From Methanothrix sp. (GTDB lineage Archaea > Halobacteriota > Methanosarcinia > Methanotrichales > Methanotrichaceae), in the NCBI GenBank assembly GCA_026394565.1, contig JAPKYA010000036.1, positions 1 through 58,772 on the forward strand: DNA of 58,772 nucleotides, read 5' to 3'. Position 1 is the first letter of the stretch; the number at the start of each line of letters is the position of its first letter. This document shows, piece after piece, positions 20,192-30,044 of the stretch. The notes under the pieces are model-generated. The model made no database searches, had not been told where the DNA came from, and worked only from the letters and a program-made list of their open reading frames with translations. The translations under genes were made by a program, and so were the position numbers.

Positions 20192-23017
20192 GTGAACGCT
20201 TTCGGCCTGCTTCATGGCCAGATCAGGGCAAGGCTAGCAGAGGAGAATATCATCGAGCCGACGCAGCCGCAAGAGGAAGCCATTCCTACCATCCTCTCCG
20301 GAGAAAATGTGCTGCTCATCGCACCTACCGGCACGGGAAAGACGGAAGCGGCCAGCCTGCCCATCTTCCACAAGATTCTCTCCGGCGAACGCAAGGGCAC
20401 GCAAGCCGTCTACATCACGCCTCTTCGTGCCCTGAATAGGGATATGTTGCGCCGGTTTCTCGAATGGGGGGAGATGCTTCACATCACCGTAGCCGTTAGG
20501 CATGGCGACACCAGCCAGGCGGATCGCAGAAAACAGGCCTTGAAGCCGCCGGACCTGCTGATCACCACCCCGGAGACGCTTCAGATAATGCTGACCGGCA
20601 AGCTCCTGCGCCAAAATCTCTCCACCGTCAAGACCGTTGTGGTGGATGAGATACATGAGATGGCCTCCTCCAAGCGCGGCTCGCAACTGGCCGTGCTTCT
20701 AGAGAGGCTGACAGAGATCGCGGGCGACTTTCAAAGGATTGGACTTTCCGCCACAGTCGGCTCGCCCCAGGCCGTGGCCAGGCTGCTCGTCGGAACCGGA
20801 CGCAGCTTCAGAATTATCCAGACAGATGTGGAGAGGGCAAGCGACTTTATGGTGGTCAGCCCCATCCCCCGAAAGGGAGACTATGCGCTTGCCGGAACCC
20901 TGGAGTGCGATCCCCGTCTCGCTGCGCAGATTCGCTTCATCCGGGAGATGGTGCATACAAAAAAGTGCCTCATCTTCGTCAACACCCGGCAGGCGGCGGA
21001 GGTCCTGGGCTCCCGGTTCCGCCAGCTTGGCGAGCCCATCGGCGTGCACCACGGCAGCCTTTCCGTAGAAACGCGAGTGGAAGCAGAAGAGGCTTTTAAG
21101 TCAGGAGAACTGCGCGGCCTGATCTGCACCTCCTCTATGGAGCTGGGAATTGACATCGGCGATGTGGACCATGTCATTCAGTACAGCTCGCCGCGCGCCA
21201 TCTCTCGTCTGCTGCAGCGCGTCGGCAGAGCCGGGCACAAGATCGGCCTCATCTCATCCGGAACCATCATCGCCACCTGTGCCGATGACGTGGCCGAAGG
21301 CTGCGCCATCGCCCGCGGGGCGGCGGGCGGCGAGCTGGAGGCCATCCAGATTCACGAGAAGCCCACAGATGTGCTCGCCAACCAGATTGTGGGCCTGGAG
21401 ATGGATTTTGGGGATATCGGCCTGGAAAAGGCGCACAGAATCGTCACCAGAGCCTATCCCTTCCGGAATCTGCTATTGGAGGAGATGAATGACGTCCTCA
21501 CGCAAATGGAGGAGAACAGGCTGGTTCGGCTGGACGGCGACGTTTTACAGAGGACCCGCAAGGCAAGGGAGTACTACATCGAGAACCTCTCCATGATCCC
21601 GGATGAGAAGAGGTACAACGTCTACGACATTGTAGGCCGCAGATCTGTTGGAACCTTGGACGAGGCCTTTGTCATCAGCTTCGCCCAACCGGGAGCCACT
21701 TTCGTCACCAAGGGGGAGATCTGGGAGATCACCGAGATTGGAGATGATGAGATCAAGGTGGTGCCCATCCATCGAAGCGGAGAGATTCCCAGTTGGACGG
21801 GAGAGGAGATTCCCGTTCCATTCGCTGTGGCCCAGGAGGTAGGGAGCATACGGCGAGAGATCCGGCAAATCCTGGAAAGCGAAGCATGCGAAAGTAGAGG
21901 CGAGGGCAGCAACGCAAGCGAGTCGGCCGTGGCCATGCTGCAGGGCAAGTACCCGGTAGATGATGTTGCGGCAGAGGAGCTGGTCGGTCTCATTGCCAAG
22001 CAGATGGAGAAAAACCTGCCAGTTCCCGATGAATCTCACATCGTGGTGGAGAGCGGAGGAGAGGGAGCCATCATCAACGCCTGCTTCGGCCACAAGACCA
22101 ACGACACATTGGGCCGGGTCATCACCTCCATCCTCTCCGCCCGATTCGGCAGCAGCGTGGCCCTGCAGATCGATCCCTACCGAATCGAGCTGACCCTGCC
22201 CCGGCCCCTATTGGCCGAGGAGATCAGAAAGCTGCTCTTGGATCTTGATCCGACCTATGTGGAGCCCATACTGGAGATGACCCTCAAGAACACCACACTT
22301 TTGCGCTGGAAGATGGTGCACGTGGCCCGCAAATTCGGGGCCTTCTCCCGAGATGTGGACTATCGGAGGGTGAGCATGGCCAAACTCCTGGCCGTCTTCG
22401 AGGGCACGCCTATGCACCGGGAGGCACTGCGGGAGATCTATCACGACCGGCTGGATATCGTGCGGGCGAAGTGGGTCCTGGAGAGAGTCCGGGACGGCTC
22501 GATTGAGATCATTATCAGCAGCTTGAGTCCCATCGGAACCTCAGGTCGGGGTGGGGGCCGGGACGTCACCTCGCCCGAGCATGCTGATGCCGCGGTAATC
22601 GATCTGCTCAAGAATCGCATTATGAACGATCGGGTCCTCTTGTTTTGCGTTAATTGCAAGAAATGGAAGTCCATGCGGCAGGTCGAGCGGGTGCCCGAGC
22701 AGCCCGAATGTCCTTTATGCGGCTCACGCATGGTGGCGGCCCTCAAGCCCTGGGAGGAAGAGGAGATCAAGGTTGTCAAGAAGCCTGAGAAGACGAAGAC
22801 CGCCGAGGAAAAAAGGAGAACGAAGCGGGTCTTCCGCAATGCCAACCTGGTTCTGAGCTATGGCAAGACCGCCGCCATCGCCCTGGCCAGCCGGGGGCTG
22901 GGGCCGGAGACGGCAGCGCGCGTGGTGGGAAAGAGGCAGAAGGATGAGCTGGAGTTTTACAGGGATATTCTGAAGGCGGAGAGGGAATATGCCAGGACGA
23001 AGAGGTTCTGGGGGTGA
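20192..23017 (+). CDS. lhr: Lhr-family superfamily 2 helicase with C-terminal zinc motif
   Basis: 941 residues. Helicase motifs in order: I APTGTGKTEAASLP, Ia TPLRALNRD, II VVDEIHEMASSKRG, III GLSATVG, IV CLIFVNTRQAAEVL, V CTSSMELGIDIGDVD and VI QRVGRAGH. This DEIHE..KRG and the long Lhr core domain beyond residue 400 mark archaeal Lhr proteins (large helicase-related), DNA or RNA-DNA helicases for repair. Near residue 810-850 is a zinc site (CVNCKKW ... CPLCGSR), seen in the aLhr2-like branch. The start is GTG with the family's expected N-terminus. Its TGA overlaps the first bases of the next (broken) gene. Confidence 0.9.
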   Translation: MNAFGLLHGQIRARLAEENIIEPTQPQEEAIPTILSGENVLLIAPTGTGKTEAASLPIFHKILSGERKGTQAVYITPLRALNRDMLRRFLEWGEMLHITVAVRHGDTSQADRRKQALKPPDLLITTPETLQIMLTGKLLRQNLSTVKTVVVDEIHEMASSKRGSQLAVLLERLTEIAGDFQRIGLSATVGSPQAVARLLVGTGRSFRIIQTDVERASDFMVVSPIPRKGDYALAGTLECDPRLAAQIRFIREMVHTKKCLIFVNTRQAAEVLGSRFRQLGEPIGVHHGSLSVETRVEAEEAFKSGELRGLICTSSMELGIDIGDVDHVIQYSSPRAISRLLQRVGRAGHKIGLISSGTIIATCADDVAEGCAIARGAAGGELEAIQIHEKPTDVLANQIVGLEMDFGDIGLEKAHRIVTRAYPFRNLLLEEMNDVLTQMEENRLVRLDGDVLQRTRKAREYYIENLSMIPDEKRYNVYDIVGRRSVGTLDEAFVISFAQPGATFVTKGEIWEITEIGDDEIKVVPIHRSGEIPSWTGEEIPVPFAVAQEVGSIRREIRQILESEACESRGEGSNASESAVAMLQGKYPVDDVAAEELVGLIAKQMEKNLPVPDESHIVVESGGEGAIINACFGHKTNDTLGRVITSILSARFGSSVALQIDPYRIELTLPRPLLAEEIRKLLLDLDPTYVEPILEMTLKNTTLLRWKMVHVARKFGAFSRDVDYRRVSMAKLLAVFEGTPMHREALREIYHDRLDIVRAKWVLERVRDGSIEIIISSLSPIGTSGRGGGRDVTSPEHADAAVIDLLKNRIMNDRVLLFCVNCKKWKSMRQVERVPEQPECPLCGSRMVAALKPWEEEEIKVVKKPEKTKTAEEKRRTKRVFRNANLVLSYGKTAAIALASRGLGPETAARVVGKRQKDELEFYRDILKAEREYARTKRFWG

Positions 23018-24446
23018 GGATAAATAATTTTTCAGGATACTTGCACATAGAGTTTCTATTGGGTCAGGGTGTGGAGGATTCCAACGCTACGGTTCTAAAG
23101 ATCGGTACTCCCAATGTGGTCAAGTCTGCTGGCATTCTGGGAGACAGCAGCATGGGCGTCTTTGCCCATCTCTCCAATCCGACTTTGATGAAGATGGCAT
23201 CTGACGGAAAGGTAGTAGGCCTGACGGCAAAAAGCTATGAGGTCTCAGAAGACGGAAAGATCTGGAAGTTTTTCATCAACGACGACCTGTACTGGAGCGA
23301 CGGAGAAAAGCTGACGCCGGATGATGTGCGGTTCACCTTTAGCTATCTGGCAGATAATTACCCGACAGCAGGCTGGATCAAGAAGACTGTGGACAATATT
23401 TCCGTGGAAGACGGCGCTGTGGTCTTCAAGCTGAACAAGCCCCACTCCCGACTGAACCTGGAGTTTGCCACCTATCCCATCCTGGCCCGGCACATCTGGG
23501 AGAAGGTGGAAAAGCCCATGGAATACATTAATGAAGGGGAGAATGTGGGCTTTGGCCCCTTCTACATCGCCAAGACGGATCTTGGTGCCGGCGTGATTTA
23601 CTTCCGGAAGAACCCCTATTGGAAGGGAGCTTCCCCCAAATTCGATTCACTGGAGATTCACACCTTCAGCAATATGGACGTGCTTTCCCTGGCCCTGAAC
23701 CTGCAAAAGGAGACCATGTCCGACAAGAGCTTCCGAGAGGCCATCTCCTGCGCCATCAACTACAGCGAAATTCTAAAGCTTGATGCTCTGGGATACGGCC
23801 AGGTTCCCAATGCCGGCTATGTGCCGCCCAGCATGATGGACTTCAAAGAGACGGCCAGGCTTGAGTACAATCTCTCCAAGGCAAAGAGCATTCTTGAAGG
23901 TGCCGGATACAAGGACTCCAATGGAAACGGCATCGTGGAGGGCAAAGACGGCAAGGACATCAAACTTACATTCCTCACAAGAACAGAATACCAGCGGACG
24001 AAGAGCTTACGCAGGAATACCTGAAGCTTCTCGGAATCGACAGCGAAGTTAAGAATGTGGATTCGAGCACCTGGATCAAGCAGAAGGATGCAGGCGAATA
24101 CGATCTGACCATCACCAGGTCCACACCCTGGGGAATGCTCATGCACGCCAACTGGGGTACAGGCTACTTCGACTCTCGCAGGACGGGCGAAGGAGTTTTG
24201 CATGTGCTTGACGATCCCGTCTTCCTCAAGCTGTGCGACGATATTCTCGCCGCCACGAACGAGGATCAGCTGCATGATTACGCCTACGAGCTGCAGGACT
24301 ACTATGCAGAGAATCTGCCGGCCATTGCCCTTTACTGGAGCAAAGCGGAGACTCCCTATAACAGGGCCTGGCAGGGCTGGTATTCCGATCCGCTCTACGG
24401 CATATTCAATGTGGACAATTTCCTCTCTGTGGAGAAGAAGCAATGA
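23014..24446 (+). pseudogene. Broken family 5 substrate-binding protein gene (oligopeptide/nickel type)
   Basis: Two frames together read a solute-binding protein of SBP family 5. The first (23014-24024) gives TVLKIGTPN..., SEDGKIWKFFINDDLYWSDGEKLTPDDVRFTFSYL and GFGPFYIAK; the second (from about 23997 to 24446) continues LTQEYLKLLGID... and YAENLPAIALYWSK. Three defects: no signal peptide in front of the domain; an internal deletion where SLALNLQKETMSDKSF joins two distant parts; and a frameshift near 23990-24000. The two frames still read without further stops, so decay is recent. Family members import peptides or nickel with an ABC transporter, and no permease gene remains nearby. Confidence 0.8.
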
Positions 24447-24686
24447 GCCAGTTGGCAGATGAATGGAGGGATTTCGTCAGAAGGGAGAGCTATGTGCATA
24501 GCCTTATGGAGGAGAATACCAACAACATCTCCTCCCTTAAATTTATTACATCGGGAGTGCGGAGGGTCACGAATACCCCAACAAGGACTCTCTGGGAACC
24601 GAAAACGGGTTACGATAATTCTGATCAATGGGATCTGGTCAACGAAAGCTCGACGATTTCTGGATTCCATAAAACCGGGCGTGCGG
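24447..24686 (+). other. Junk between two gene remnants; open but unrecognised start
   Basis: An ATG at 24443 overlaps the stop of the pseudogene above and opens about 35 plausible codons (MSQLADEWRDFVRRESY...), which do not match any transporter part I know. Downstream the sequence loses coding character. A rest of another operon gene is possible. The stretch ends at the hairpin at 24687. Confidence 0.3.
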
Positions 24687-24737
24687 GCGTGCGGCCCGAA
24701 GCATACCCCATCCCTTTAGGGTGGGGTGGCCGCACGC
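24687..24737. repeat. 51-base near-perfect hairpin at a deletion junction
   Basis: The outer arms GCGTGCGGCC (24687-24696) and GGCCGCACGC (24728-24737) are perfectly complementary. Inside, ACCCCATCCCT (24705-24715) pairs with AGGGTGGGGT (24718-24727) with one bulge and a tiny loop. It lies exactly between the decayed binding-protein locus and the truncated EcfT gene, and the EcfT frame begins in its right arm. It could be a mobile palindromic element or a remnant at the break point. Confidence 0.65.
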
Positions 24738-24980
24738 AGTTTGATTCCCATCTTTGCGGGCATAATCGCCCTGCCCATGGTCTTCAACATCTTCTTCCCC
24801 GGTGACCCACTCATTTTGTTGGCATATCTGGGACCAGGAGCTCATATCGGACCATTTTCGCTGCCTGATAGTATTTTCATCACCAAGCAGGGGGTCAACC
24901 TGGCAGTCATATTTACCATGCGTGTGGCGACCTGCGTCTCGTCTTGCTTGTGTTGATCGCTCAGGATTTTATTCGGGTGT
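24720..24980 (+). pseudogene. Remnant of an EcfT (CbiQ) energy-coupling transmembrane gene
   Basis: The frame from about 24727 reads SLIPIFAGIIALPMVFNIFFPGDPL and later FITKQGVNLAVIFTMRVATCVSS. These are the conserved middle of EcfT/CbiQ (PxIFxxIIALPxxFNxFxPGxPL..ITxxGLxxAxxFxxRVxxxVS). The frame then breaks: the ending LRLVLLVLIAQDFIRV reads in another frame to 24980. The first 60 or more residues and the C-terminal coupling helices with the Ala-Arg-Gly motifs are missing, so this cannot be a working transmembrane component. It sits 6 bases before the intact ATPase gene. Confidence 0.7.
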
Positions 24981-24986
24981 AAGAAC

Positions 24987-25823
24987 ATGGATACCATCTT
25001 CGACTTAAGAAATATTTCATATTCATACGTGGGAAAGATAAATGCGCTGAAAGATATCAGCTTAAAGATAAATCGTGGAGAACAAGTATCAATAATCGGC
25101 ACAAACGGCAGCGGCAAATCAACTCTGTTGGCCATCCTGAATGGATTGATCTATCCGACTTCAAGAGAATTTTATGCATTCGATAATCAGATAACCGAGG
25201 ATGTTTTTGGTGCCATAAAGGATAATAAGTTCCGGTCCTATTTCCGCACGAAGGTGGGCTTCGTCTTTCAGAACTCTGATGTCCAGCTCTTCTCGCCTAC
25301 GGTCTACGAGGAGATCGCCTTTGGGCCCTTACAGCTTGATGTCCCACCAGAGGAGGTTAAACACAGAGTTGAGGACGTTCTGGAGATAATGGAAATCACA
25401 AAGCTCAGGGATCGATCGCCTCATACCCTAAGCGGTGGGGAGAAAAAGAAAGTATGCATAGCTACGGTGCTGGTCAACAACCCGGATGTCCTCCTATTAG
25501 ATGAGCCCACGGCCGGATTAGACCCCAGGACGCAGCTCTGGCTGGTTGAGTTCTTGCAGGAGCTGGGAAGGTCGGGGAAGACTGTGATCACTGCCACACA
25601 TGACCTGGAAACCATCGAGCAGATCAGCAAGAGGGCCGTAGTCATGGGTGAAGATCACGGTGTTAAAGTCGACGGAGATACGGTCAAAGTACTGGATGAC
25701 ATGGCACTCCTCCTTAGCGTCAACCTCATTCACGAGCACATGCATATTCACGGAAAGACGGTTCATGAGCACCTCCATGCCCATGGAAAAGAAAAAGAGC
25801 ACCACCCTCAACATCTGACTTAA
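24987..25823 (+). CDS. cbiO: EcfA-type cobalt/nickel ABC ATPase with His-rich C-terminal tail
   Basis: 278 residues. Walker A GTNGSGKSTLL, Q-loop GFVFQNSDVQLFSPTVYEE with EcfA-typical FGPLQL, signature LSGGEKKKV, Walker B DVLLLDEPTAGLD and switch ATHDLET are all intact. The last 35 residues are an unusual His-rich tail: HEHMHIHGKTVHEHLHAHGK and HHPQH, containing ten His. Such a tail might store or sense the transported metal. The membrane and substrate-capture partners are absent or broken nearby, so the ATPase is either an orphan or serves a distant EcfT. The His-rich gene at 26026 follows. Confidence 0.88.
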   Translation: MDTIFDLRNISYSYVGKINALKDISLKINRGEQVSIIGTNGSGKSTLLAILNGLIYPTSREFYAFDNQITEDVFGAIKDNKFRSYFRTKVGFVFQNSDVQLFSPTVYEEIAFGPLQLDVPPEEVKHRVEDVLEIMEITKLRDRSPHTLSGGEKKKVCIATVLVNNPDVLLLDEPTAGLDPRTQLWLVEFLQELGRSGKTVITATHDLETIEQISKRAVVMGEDHGVKVDGDTVKVLDDMALLLSVNLIHEHMHIHGKTVHEHLHAHGKEKEHHPQHLT

Positions 25824-26025
25824 AGTCCGAGCGCGAGTCCACCAGTCCGATTGTTGCTGGAAAGCCGGACTAAAGTCAATCGGACTAAGAATTTCATTAT
25901 TAGTATTACTTTGGGAGACTTTTAGTAGAAAAGTATTTAGAACATAACAGTAATATGTTATTGTGTAGTCAAATGAGTCTTTGAGCACAATGATATTGAC
26001 TATCAAGCCAAGGAAGGTGGCATAA

Positions 26026-26169
26026 ATGGCAGAGAAGCACGAACATGAACACGAACACGAGATTAAACATGAGCACGAGCATGAGCATGAGGATAAAGCC
26101 CATGCACATGAACATGGACACGAAATAAAGCATAAACATGAGCATGGCGAGGAAGAAGAACATAATTAG
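26026..26169 (+). CDS. 47-residue His/Glu-rich peptide, probable metal-binding
   Basis: ATG at 26026 preceded by a strong AGGAAGGTGG ribosome site (26011-26020). The product is 47 residues with 16 His and many Glu, mostly as alternating HE pairs, plus HAHEHGHE and a GEEEEHN end. No Cys or hydrophobic core, so it should be disordered and able to bind several Ni, Co or Zn ions. It lies downstream of the His-tailed ATPase and 22 bases before the next gene, which also has its own ribosome site, so the three probably share a transcript. It is too repetitive for a chance frame, because only this frame reads His/Glu alternation with a good ribosome site. Confidence 0.75.
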   Translation: MAEKHEHEHEHEIKHEHEHEHEDKAHAHEHGHEIKHKHEHGEEEEHN

Positions 26170-26191
26170 AGGAATCAGGAAGGTGAATTTG

Positions 26192-26560
26192 ATGAATCAT
26201 GTCGATAGAGCATTTTTCTTCACGAGGATTGACAGCAAAGATGAACTGATGGACGCGATGTTCAACCACAAATGGCCTCTTTGCTGCAGCTTTTATCACG
26301 AGAAACTGCTCTACCTGAGCGATGGTGAATGTGAGGACATGCCGGAATACGCCATCGTGGCTATTGACAAAACTGATGGGCGCTTCGGCGTTCATGGCCG
26401 CGAGGTGGGAAGGATCAAGCCTGCGAGCATGCAGCCCGCAGAGACGCCAAAGTTCATCCAGGAGATGAATGCGGGCATTCGCAATGTCGGGAATCCAGTC
26501 CAGTTCGTGGCAGAGCCAAAATGGCACCATAGCTGTCAGCTTTGCAGCTTGGAAGATTAG
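26192..26560 (+). CDS. 122-residue protein with C-terminal HH/CxxC site, unknown
   Basis: Starts at ATG 26192 with AGGAAGGTGA 6-7 bases upstream, and 22 bases after the His-rich peptide. Visible: MNHVDRAFFFTRIDSKDEL, a CC pair (WPLCCSFYHEK), a GDGE... acidic patch, and the C-terminal WHHSCQLCSLED, a compact HHxCxxC site likely to bind metal. The middle (YAIVAIDKTDGRFGVHGREVG) looks like a two-strand beta hairpin. Family unknown. Its coupling to His-rich genes suggests a metal chaperone or sensor, an inference from context only. Confidence 0.65.
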   Translation: MNHVDRAFFFTRIDSKDELMDAMFNHKWPLCCSFYHEKLLYLSDGECEDMPEYAIVAIDKTDGRFGVHGREVGRIKPASMQPAETPKFIQEMNAGIRNVGNPVQFVAEPKWHHSCQLCSLED

Positions 26561-27026
26561 CGTTTGCCGTTTACCTGCCGTTTTTAATTTTTGGTTAAAC
26601 CAGGACCGAGAGTTGCTACTTAAATACTGGAAATCGCAATTCTGATGCGTTCATATCTATATTTTGATTTGTCTCTAATAGAGTAAAATGGCTTTATTTA
26701 TACAACATAGGCATCTACATTGAAGAAAATTGAGCACTCTATTGATTACATGCGCGAGGGAATCTCGCCACTAAATCACAATGCAGCAGGTTCGATAGGA
26801 GATCGACATATTCTCTTATCTGGCAGCGTCTTTCTCCCGGAAATCATTATGACGCATCTAGCTTATCAATTATCCGTCCTACTAATATAGTTTCCTAAAG
26901 CAAGATATATCCTAATAACATAATTGAAACAGAAGATTTATGCATAATCGCAAGAATGGTGCTACAAATAGCAGCTATTCTCTTTTACAAAAGTTATGTC
27001 CATCCTTTAAAAAGTCCACAAAAAGG
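26561..27026. other. Intergenic region, no gene seen
   Basis: About 465 AT-rich bases. A TATA-like CTTTATTTATAC near 26692-26703 has no gene within reach downstream. Short pieces read openly on the plus strand (for example after 26720) but lack a ribosome site and are not convincing. No tRNA fold was recognised. Confidence 0.3.
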
Positions 27027-27035
27027 ATTATATAT
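27027..27035 (+). promoter_or_regulatory. TATA box with BRE for the Cys/His peptide gene
   Basis: AAAAGG (BRE-like) followed by ATTATATAT lies about 51-59 bases before the ATG at 27086. Transcription is expected near 27055-27060, giving a 25-30 base leader with the GGAGGTGAA ribosome site. This makes the small gene a separate transcription unit. Confidence 0.5.
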
Positions 27036-27085
27036 CGGATCCATGTAATTAATTGCTATCAACAATGAAATGGAGGTGAATCTAA

Positions 27086-27202
27086 ATGTGTTGCCATGAT
27101 GATAATAAGCACGCACACGCACACGCTCACGATGGAAAAGAGCACGTCCATGAGCACATCCACGACGCAGAGCACAAGCACGGACACAAGTGCTGCCATT
27201 AA
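27086..27202 (+). CDS. 38-residue Cys/His-rich peptide, probable metal-binding
   Basis: ATG at 27086, ribosome site GGAGGTGAA at 27072-27080, stop at 27200-27202. The 38 residues begin MCCH and end KCCH, with the middle HAHAHAH and HVHEHIHD and HKHGHK: four Cys and 13 His, about 45% metal-ligating residues. The symmetrical CC ends and His core would fit a metallothionein-like zinc/nickel/copper store. It has its own promoter and terminator, so it is a discrete small gene. No family recognised; length is below typical gene-finder limits. Confidence 0.7.
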   Translation: MCCHDDNKHAHAHAHDGKEHVHEHIHDAEHKHGHKCCH

Positions 27203-27367: not shown

Positions 27368-27562
27368 TCAATAATAAATCTGGACCCTCCTGAGCGGATT
27401 ATTTTTTCTATCTACCAGGATGACTTCCTCTCCATTCTCAATTCCCGGATCTGAAGCTATAACCTGTCCCGAGAACAGCATTCCTCCACGGGCAATGAAG
27501 GGTACAGCTGCATCTGAGACCACTACCCTGCTGATTGATGATTTATCTGCTTCGGACATCAT
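27368..27562 (-). CDS. Short PUA-like domain protein, possibly a fragment
   Basis: 64 residues. SRVVVSDAAVPFIARGGMLFSGQVIASDPGI followed by NGEEVILVDRKNNPL fits the N-terminal two thirds of a PUA domain as found at the end of archaeosine tRNA-guanine transglycosylases. An AGGAG site stands about 7 bases upstream of the ATG at 27562. The protein stops before the final PUA strand, so it is either a very small stand-alone RNA-binding module or a remnant of a longer gene. Confidence is limited. Confidence 0.5.
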   Translation of the reverse strand: MMSEADKSSISRVVVSDAAVPFIARGGMLFSGQVIASDPGIENGEEVILVDRKNNPLRRVQIYY

Positions 27563-28960: not shown

Positions 28961-29788
28961 CTACACCAGGAGCGGATTATTTAACTCTGAAGAAAGGGCC
29001 ATCTTTGCATTGGACGCGCCATTAAAAGAGCGGATGGGCACTATATAAGGTCTGCCGGAGACGTTCATCACCATGGCCTCAATTCCGAAGACTGCAGCCA
29101 TGTTCTCAGCGCTGAGCAACAGGCCTAGATGGCCCTTTGCATAGATCTTTCCCTTGACCAGCATGGCCAGCTTGTCCGAGAACCGGGAGGCCAAATTGAG
29201 GTCGTGGATGGCCATCACCGCGGAGATCTTCTTCTCATGCACCATGTCCCTGACGATCTCCATCACCTCCAGTTGATGCCTCATGTCCAGATTGGAGGTC
29301 GGCTCGTCTAAGAGGAGCACGGCGGGCTCCTGGGCCAGAGCGCGAGCGATGAGCACTTTTTGCCTCTGGCCCCCGGAAAGCTGGGAAAAGTCCCTCATGG
29401 CCAGATCCTCCAGATGCAAAAGCTCCAGGATCCCGGCCACCTTATCCAGGTCGGCGTCGGAGACCTGCCAGCTTATGTGAGGCTTTCTGCCCATGAGCAC
29501 CGTATCGAAGACGGTTGTGGACAGGGAGCTGGTGCTGCTCTGGGGAACGTAGCCGATGGCCCTGGCGATCTCCTGCCGGCTCAAGCTCTCGATGTCTCTT
29601 CCGTCCAGAAAGATGCAGCCTTTGGGCCTTAAAATACGATCAATGCACTTGATGAGCGTTGTCTTTCCCGAGCCGTTGGGCCCCACCAGGCTTACAATTT
29701 CTGAGTCATGTACTGCTAAATTGACATCCTCGAGGATCTTGTGGCTGCTATAACTGAATGAAAGGCCTTTTATCTCAATCTTTACCAA
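28961..29788 (-). CDS. FecE/BtuD-type ABC ATPase (siderophore/cobalamin class), orphan
   Basis: 275 residues from a TTG at 29788; an ATG at 29818 adds ten residues but overlaps the upstream gene by 44 bases. IEIKGLSFSYSSHKIL opens the domain; Walker A GPNGSGKTT, Q-loop YVPQSS, signature LSGGQRQKV, Walker B AVLLLDEPTSNLD, switch AIHDLN. The tail ASRFSDKLAMLVKGKIYAKG is typical of FecE/BtuD importers of iron-chelates or B12. No FecCD permease or binding protein is adjacent, so the ATPase is orphaned here. Upstream is a small unknown gene overlapping it. Confidence 0.85.
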   Translation of the reverse strand: MVKIEIKGLSFSYSSHKILEDVNLAVHDSEIVSLVGPNGSGKTTLIKCIDRILRPKGCIFLDGRDIESLSRQEIARAIGYVPQSSTSSLSTTVFDTVLMGRKPHISWQVSDADLDKVAGILELLHLEDLAMRDFSQLSGGQRQKVLIARALAQEPAVLLLDEPTSNLDMRHQLEVMEIVRDMVHEKKISAVMAIHDLNLASRFSDKLAMLVKGKIYAKGHLGLLLSAENMAAVFGIEAMVMNVSGRPYIVPIRSFNGASNAKMALSSELNNPLLV

Positions 29789-30044
29789 ATTGTATCTCTT
29801 CTCCCACGATAAGCCCATGGTCAGGCTTTGCCCTCAAGCGGATGTACTGATCCCCGCAGCGCACGCCAATTGCTGGGATCTCCTCTTGTGCGGTGGCGCT
29901 TTCCAGTACCAACAGGCTCCTCTCGTCTAAAGATCTCAGTCTGCTGGAATCATAACCATCTCTGCTGAGAAATATTGCGGTTACCAGATCAAATCCTTTA
30001 TCGAAGCAACTTTTTCTGATATCTGTGATCATCAGCGAGGTCAT
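29775..30044 (-). CDS. 89-residue hypothetical protein upstream of the ABC ATPase
   Basis: ATG at 30044 with AGGA 5-8 bases before it. A short alpha/beta protein: MITDIRKSCFDKGFDLVTAIFLSRDGYDSS, LRSLDERSLLVLESA, EEIPAIGVRCGDQYIRLRAKPDHGLIVGEEIQF. The last part looks like a small beta-barrel. The 3' end overlaps the ATPase, suggesting coupling. Codon pattern and a ribosome site support a real gene, but I do not recognise the family. Confidence 0.5.
   Translation of the reverse strand: MTSLMITDIRKSCFDKGFDLVTAIFLSRDGYDSSRLRSLDERSLLVLESATAQEEIPAIGVRCGDQYIRLRAKPDHGLIVGEEIQFGKD

Follow-up and report, generated by a model that had tools for sequence, protein, structure and literature searches.

We describe here a group of histidine-rich genes on a 58,772-nucleotide contig of Methanothrix sp. 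(GenBank assembly GCA_026394565.1, contig JAPKYA010000036.1), which we refer to in full as the window, and in particular a small product with a Cys pair near each end that we call the CCH peptide (MCCH...CCH). Its gene lies downstream of a nikA-like pseudogene, a remnant of cbiQ, the gene for an energy-coupling factor (ECF) ATPase with a His-rich C-terminal tail, a His/Glu-repeat peptide and a 122-residue protein (Table 1). The original prediction, made by a model from the letters of the window, described the tail and the three small products as a metal-handling island. The 47-residue peptide with 16 His and the 38-residue peptide with four Cys and 13 His are both present as it described them; the ATPase tail is indeed His-rich, although its last 35 residues contain 11 rather than ten His, and the 122-residue protein does contain WHHSCQLC, but this is followed by four more residues, such that the protein ends HHSCQLCSLED. 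That such a composition cannot be chance is borne out for the two peptides: each has 34% His, the largest content in the window, and they are the only open reading frames (ORFs) with at least 20% His among 570 of at least 30 aa. Order-2 Markov resampling (n=60) gave a top His fraction of 17.6% and no ORFs at 30%, and because the resampled ORFs never neared 34% His we reject chance composition for both.

Table 1. Features of the His-rich stretch and the importer remains upstream, in window coordinates.
Feature	Position	Strand	Remarks
nikA-like family-5 substrate-binding protein pseudogene	23014..24446	+	5' truncated, frame change near 24010; SBP_bac_5 4.4e-43
225 bp without counterpart in related operon	24517..24741	.	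breakpoint of ~5.8 kb deletion
cbiQ/nikQ remnant	24741..24986	+	protein match limited to CbiQ residues 111-177, plus 3' scrap
EcfA/NikO-type ECF ATPase, His-rich C-terminal tail	24987..25823	+	278 aa
Conserved promoter-like element AAAGTATTTAGA	25930..25941	+	upstream of His/Glu peptide and 122-aa gene
His/Glu-repeat peptide	26026..26169	+	47 aa, 16 His; window and three close relatives
122-aa protein, undescribed Methanotrichaceae family	26192..26560	+	invariant WPxC and WHHxCxxC
Element TGCTACAAAT	26960..26969	+	recurs upstream of CCH genes
TATA-like box of CCH gene	27028..27034	+	TATA-like pattern
Ribosome-binding site GGAGGTGA of CCH gene	27072..27079	+	GGAGGTG-type pattern
CCH peptide (MCCH...CCH)	27086..27202	+	38 aa, 13 His, 4 Cys

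The CCH peptide, its gene and its neighbours

The CCH peptide follows the pattern M-C-C-H...HxHxHxH...HxHEHxHD..HxHxHxCCH, and an alignment of 25 copies has 17 invariant columns (M1, C2, H4, H9, H11, H13, H15, H20, H22, E23, H26, H30, H32, H34, C36, C37 and H38), 15 of which are His or Cys. The Cys pairs near the two termini are C2-C3, which is C-G in one copy, and C36-C37, and all 25 aligned copies start Met-Cys-x-His. Codon usage within the His positions alternates between CAC and CAT, and the proportions of synonymous (pS) and nonsynonymous (pN) differences average 0.87 and 0.14 respectively (pN/pS 0.158), with pN below pS in 300 of 300 pairs. Judged by these substitution patterns, the gene is real, and its His and Cys residues are strongly constrained by purifying selection. 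A search pattern with an obligatory M[CG][CG]H recovered 30 copies, and each of these also had CCH near its end. Broken or diverged copies do occur, one lacking the MCCH start (L097; L numbers denote loci and G numbers genomes) and another containing an internal stop (L117), and the genome from which the window derives carries a second copy, starting MCGH, on contig C119 (L088).

The distribution of the CCH peptide is narrow. A single-sequence search located it in 24 of 60 relatives, and a profile search in 28 of 237 genomes of the class, spread over five genera, and in 6 of 392 genomes of the phylum, all of them belonging to the family of the window, Methanotrichaceae (f1). The carriers include G003 and G227, each assembled into two contigs (about 3.0 and 2.6 Mb respectively). 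Beyond the phylum the search covered viral contigs and plasmids; none of 98 stretches matching the pattern in viral contigs was confirmed, and tblastn matches in 16 plasmid records, all below 60% identity and 10 of them lying under annotated genes for DMT-family transporters, were rejected as compositional. The window peptide has no match in Pfam or NCBIfam, and the CCH profile has none in the PDB at E values up to 1. A gene of this size is easily missed by annotation.

The gene mostly has promoter-like and start signals of its own, as far as sequence patterns can indicate. At 26 of 30 CCH loci a TATA-like pattern lies no more than 130 nt upstream, as against 5% of 6000 positions drawn at random from these loci, and at 28 of 30 there is a GGAGGTG-type ribosome site, as against 2.5% of such positions. 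We also note that TGCTACAAAT precedes many CCH genes and is otherwise infrequent in the examined loci. Two further reading frames on the opposite strand lie close to the CCH gene of the window, a 64-aa ORF with a match to the PUA domain (27368-27562, 3.1e-7) just downstream, and an ABC ATPase of the corrinoid/haem/siderophore importer type (28961-29818).

The genes found near CCH genes in other genomes were compared with those around control loci, using twelve metal-gene queries within 7 kb of 31 CCH loci (the window being excluded, 293 kb of flank in total) and of 34 loci that encode the 122-aa protein without a CCH gene (334 kb). Any of the twelve was present at 18 of the 31 CCH loci and at 6 of the 34 controls. 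With FecB and FecCD dropped, importer genes for Ni, Co or Zn, or cfb genes for synthesis of coenzyme F430, were present at 16/31 and 4/34 respectively (one-sided Fisher p=0.0006), and CbiM/CbiQ alone at 8/31 and 0/34 (p=0.0016), p-values that are descriptive only because the queries are post hoc, the loci related and the controls unmatched. Three of the four control matches are to CfbB at 42-45% identity, and may reflect related cob enzymes.

The importers concerned are of several kinds. All four of cbiM, cbiN, cbiQ and cbiO occur together near the CCH gene at L058 (where cbiM is cut by the contig edge), L060, L065 and L097, and cbiM with cbiN at L078 and L080, while a second type of CbiM is seen at L082, together with a cation-efflux gene, and at L092, 5.8 kb away. 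ZnuA/ZnuB genes lie within 7 kb at L080, L081, L085 and L087. In G011 and G014 (L091 and L093) the CCH gene lies downstream of cfbC-cfbB and a PNPOx-like gene, and both cfb family matches exceed the curated cut-offs; the 134-aa gene between cfbB and the CCH gene was considered as CfbA and rejected, being the PNPOx-like one. Two other neighbours were observed: the efflux gene of the CbiM2 cluster at L082 (L082:5768-6790), beside the CCH gene, encodes a cation diffusion facilitator (CDF) with a His-rich N-terminus, and a small MntR/DtxR-like helix-turn-helix protein is encoded near the cbiMNQO-CCH cluster of L097 (L097:4658-4993, minus strand).

A decayed nickel/cobalt importer and its His-tailed ATPase

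The importer upstream of the CCH gene is dead in this assembly, as the original prediction had stated. The two frames of the nikA-like pseudogene match NikA-like residues 33-384 and 381-525. Relative to the operon of G024 (L060), about 5.8 kb is absent between positions 24516 and 24741, accounting for cbiM, cbiN, the 5' part of cbiQ and other nik/opp-type ABC genes, and a second deletion of about 370 bp lies within cbiQ at about 24943. The window thus retains no CbiM or CbiN and a broken CbiQ, and an S component with Q and O in one operon is not found in it; searches of the genome assembly, which is 79% complete, gave one distant CbiM (30%, E<=1e-10) and the two nikA fragments (E<=1e-40). The deletions may be an assembly error. 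The related locus L058 of G009, 93% identical, retains cbiN and cbiQ, with cbiM interrupted only by the contig edge. We note that the breakpoint stretch at 24517-24741 contains a hairpin-like GC-rich repeat, and that about 120 bp of it recur in L194 at 85% identity.

The order cbiM-cbiN-cbiQ-ecfA-122-aa gene-CCH peptide is seen in G009, G024 and G022, and a short contig of G006 carries the genes for the His/Glu peptide, the 122-aa protein and the CCH peptide together with the last part of ecfA. From one genome to another, the CCH gene changes neighbours. The order in relatives supports the placement of the locus with Ni/Co import, as a derivative of a Nik/Cbi ECF importer operon, and the window stretch is the leftover 3' half of a decayed NikMNQO-type operon. 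The S component of the operon is accompanied by a small protein that matches the C-terminal part of the CbiM model (PRK07331) and that we read, from this match, as NikN-like. NikN is described as serving Ni uptake specifically, and CbiN that of Co (PMC2667541).

The ATPase itself resembles those of Nik/CbiMNQO transporters (NikO/CbiO) in matching the ECF_ATPase_2 (1.7e-65) and cobalt-transporter ATPase (cbiO, 4.9e-54) models, and in G009, G024, G022 and G027 its orthologues are accompanied by CbiM/CbiQ genes; it differs in that both scores are below the curated cut-offs, in its His-rich tail, and in the loss or breakage of its CbiM, CbiN and CbiQ partners. A search of the 60 relatives at E<=1e-90 placed orthologues at 29 positions in 28 genomes, the window included. 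A tail of the [IV]HxHxHxH type with 11-14 His in the last 40 residues is present in 27 of 27 full-length orthologues, that of the window among them; the remaining two are L151, which is cut by the contig and falls outside the 27, and L150, which is shorter (246 aa) and diverges ahead of the usual tail position, still with 11 His in its last 40 residues. Since all 27 are tailed, the tail belongs to this ATPase lineage wherever its gene is located, and by these alignments it is a lineage-wide trait of the NikO-type ATPase in its own right. Comparison of the window gene with that of L058 gives a pN/pS of 0.20 (13 synonymous and nine other differences), and decay, if any, is therefore recent.

The His/Glu peptide is found, besides the window, only at L058, L059 and L060 among 60 inspected loci (no genome-wide search for it was made), with lengths of 34, 37 and 60 aa respectively. 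The gaps preserve the frame and are consistent with slippage of a 6-nt repeat encoding His-Glu. The peptide is lacking from L065 and L097, and at L065 AAAGTATTTAGA nonetheless precedes the 122-aa gene. A palindrome upstream of the His/Glu peptide, ATAACA-N6-TGTTAT, was considered as a conserved operator and rejected, being exact in only three loci of 194, all of the same stretch.

Candidate nickel buffering and its alternatives

Methane formation requires nickel, in coenzyme F430 of methyl-coenzyme M reductase and in the carbon monoxide dehydrogenase/acetyl-CoA synthase complex (CODH/ACS), and acetate-using methanogens depend on these enzymes. To our knowledge, the way in which methanogens retain cytosolic Ni and pass it on is poorly understood, and a small conserved peptide that has a fixed ligand pattern and is easily synthesised makes the question directly testable. 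We favor a reading, with a probability of about 0.55, in which the CCH peptide acts as a lineage-specific Ni(II) buffer or carrier analogous to Hpn, cytosolic and probably unstructured, and perhaps also accommodating Co(II) or Zn(II). It draws support from the conservation of the peptide, its restriction to Methanotrichaceae, the context of importer and F430 genes, and the analogy with Hpn. The suggestion in the original prediction that the peptides store Ni, Co or Zn was inferential, and gene context favors nickel among the three.

The conserved pattern suggests an extended imidazole ladder closed by two thiol pairs, and the peptide would bind several divalent metal ions through its HxHxH runs and its two Cys-Cys-His ends. 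Met aminopeptidases cleave Met preceding Cys, and because residue 2 is Cys, Met1 would be removed to leave NH2-Cys-Cys-His, an amino-terminal Cu(II)- and Ni(II)-binding (ATCUN)-type site that is available only with Met1 removed and that would explain the fixed His4. The peptide could then buffer Ni(II) and pass it on to F430 and CODH/ACS. A more specific form of this proposal, that the Methanotrichaceae peptide of 38-41 residues is a dedicated Ni carrier for assembly of both, with the N-terminal Cys-Cys-His site, a C-terminal CCH clamp and the HxH ladder as its working parts, is tentative and rather less probable; if true, it would constitute a previously undescribed Ni metallothionein or chaperone of methanogens.

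Several observations weigh against the Ni(II) buffer. The support consists of sequence and gene context. The metal-gene queries were picked from the CCH loci once the genes around these had been clustered, which lowers our confidence, and the CCH loci are phylogenetically related and the controls not matched to them one to one. No Ni, Co, Zn or F430 gene was found within 7 kb at 15 of the 31 CCH loci, a count in which L199 and L117, not placed by the search pattern, are scored as misses, and which includes several contigs shorter than 5 kb and two loci (L073 and L088) with only Fec-type genes. None of the queried genes is seen at L090, L095, L096 and L195-L198, and L090, L096 and L195-L197 are without them despite at least 10 kb of flank. 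At L083, L084 and L094 the family-5 substrate-binding proteins share no more than 23-27% identity with the NikA-like query and may be components of peptide importers; without them the count falls to 13/31. Fairly complete genomes of the same genus (G010, G020 and G021) lack the CCH gene, which is therefore not essential. The Znu neighbours at four loci, moreover, would suit zinc equally.

The last point bears on the reading in which the CCH peptide is mainly a buffer for zinc or for divalent metals in general, or a metallothionein-like detoxifier, and is not directed at Ni. Its four Cys and 13-15 His suit Zn, and the CDF gene beside the CCH gene at L082 and the four Znu loci are as would be expected, although CbiM/CbiQ or cfbBC neighbours are found at 10 of the 31 loci and Znu at four. 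We judge this reading unlikely, although on gene context Zn is still a serious contender behind Ni. Alternatively, the stretch could be the passive remnant of a decaying operon, with an orphan EcfA, a His/Glu peptide produced by slippage in a leader repeat, and only the CCH gene (perhaps with the 122-aa gene) functional and unrelated to the importer. The broken or missing nikA, cbiM, cbiN and cbiQ and the variable length (34-60 aa) and four-genome occurrence of the His/Glu ORF among the inspected loci are consistent with this, but in other genomes CCH genes are repeatedly found close to importers of several kinds, and the remnant explanation as a whole seems to us somewhat unlikely.

The proposal that all four features form a functional island whose parts act together fares worst, and we consider it improbable. 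The window, G009, G006 and G024 share an order in which ecfA (or at least its end) is followed by the genes for the His/Glu peptide, the 122-aa protein and the CCH peptide, and G022 has this order without the His/Glu peptide; the pN/pS of EcfA remains at 0.20 despite the broken cbiQ. However, EcfA, the 122-aa family and the CCH peptide usually occur at separate loci, the His/Glu peptide was seen in only four genomes among the inspected loci (and is absent from L065 and L097 as noted above), and in the closest relative, G009, a TGA falls at a conserved Trp of the 122-aa gene. We therefore reject the single conserved system; the lineage-wide tail of EcfA and the separate standing of the 122-aa family guard against treating the stretch as one island.

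Returning to the Ni(II) buffer, the closest parallel is with Hpn and Hpn-2 (Hpn-like) of Helicobacter pylori, compared here by description. Hpn is reported to sequester Ni and to carry a single CC motif or two at its N- or C-terminal end (PMC4671568), and N-terminal XXH peptides of Hpn-like to bind Ni(II) in ATCUN mode (PMC8704837), which the start of the CCH peptide would parallel given removal of Met1. As far as these descriptions go, the proteins share small size, richness in His, a CC near a terminus, a nickel context and lineage specificity. The CCH peptide differs in its length of 38-41 aa, its regular HxH spacing in place of long His runs or Gln, its Cys pairs at both ends, its archaeal host, and its frequent location near ECF importers or F430 genes. 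CooJ of Rhodospirillum rubrum, a CODH accessory protein, is likewise small and His-rich and is described as binding four Ni per monomer, with 16 His in its C-terminal domain (PMC6006190), but it is a 12.6 kDa protein encoded in CODH operons in that account; no CODH gene was seen among the annotated CCH neighbours, where no search aimed at CODH was made. Metallothioneins are similarly very small, rich in metal ligands and probably unstructured, although the CCH peptide is dominated by His and matches nothing at all in Pfam or NCBIfam. Literature searches gave no earlier description of either the CCH peptide or the 122-aa family among the matches listed, and we regard the peptide, on sequence grounds, as a probable variant of the His-rich nickel peptides, confined among the genomes searched to a single family of methanogens.

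The 122-residue protein family

The 122-aa protein is without a match in Pfam or NCBIfam, and its profile gave a single weak hit in the PDB (E 0.057). Its two Cys motifs are invariant across 21 aligned rows. The family is present in 32 of the 60 relatives, often in two copies, and in 12 of the 392 genomes of the phylum, all of them Methanotrichaceae; a pattern scan of GTDB species located 43 loci, the titles of which name Methanothrix, Methanosaeta, Methanotrichaceae, or unassigned Methanosarcinales, Euryarchaeota or archaeon. At 28 of the 34 loci without a CCH gene, none of the twelve metal-gene queries is found within 7 kb. We consider the protein to represent a separate family that is perhaps redox- or zinc-related. 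In three of 39 rows (L108, L109 and L111) the reading frame runs on, by way of a linker with abundant His, Met and Cys, into peroxiredoxin-like sequence, and in one of the three, L108 (L108:2932-4098), the peroxiredoxin is confirmed by profile.

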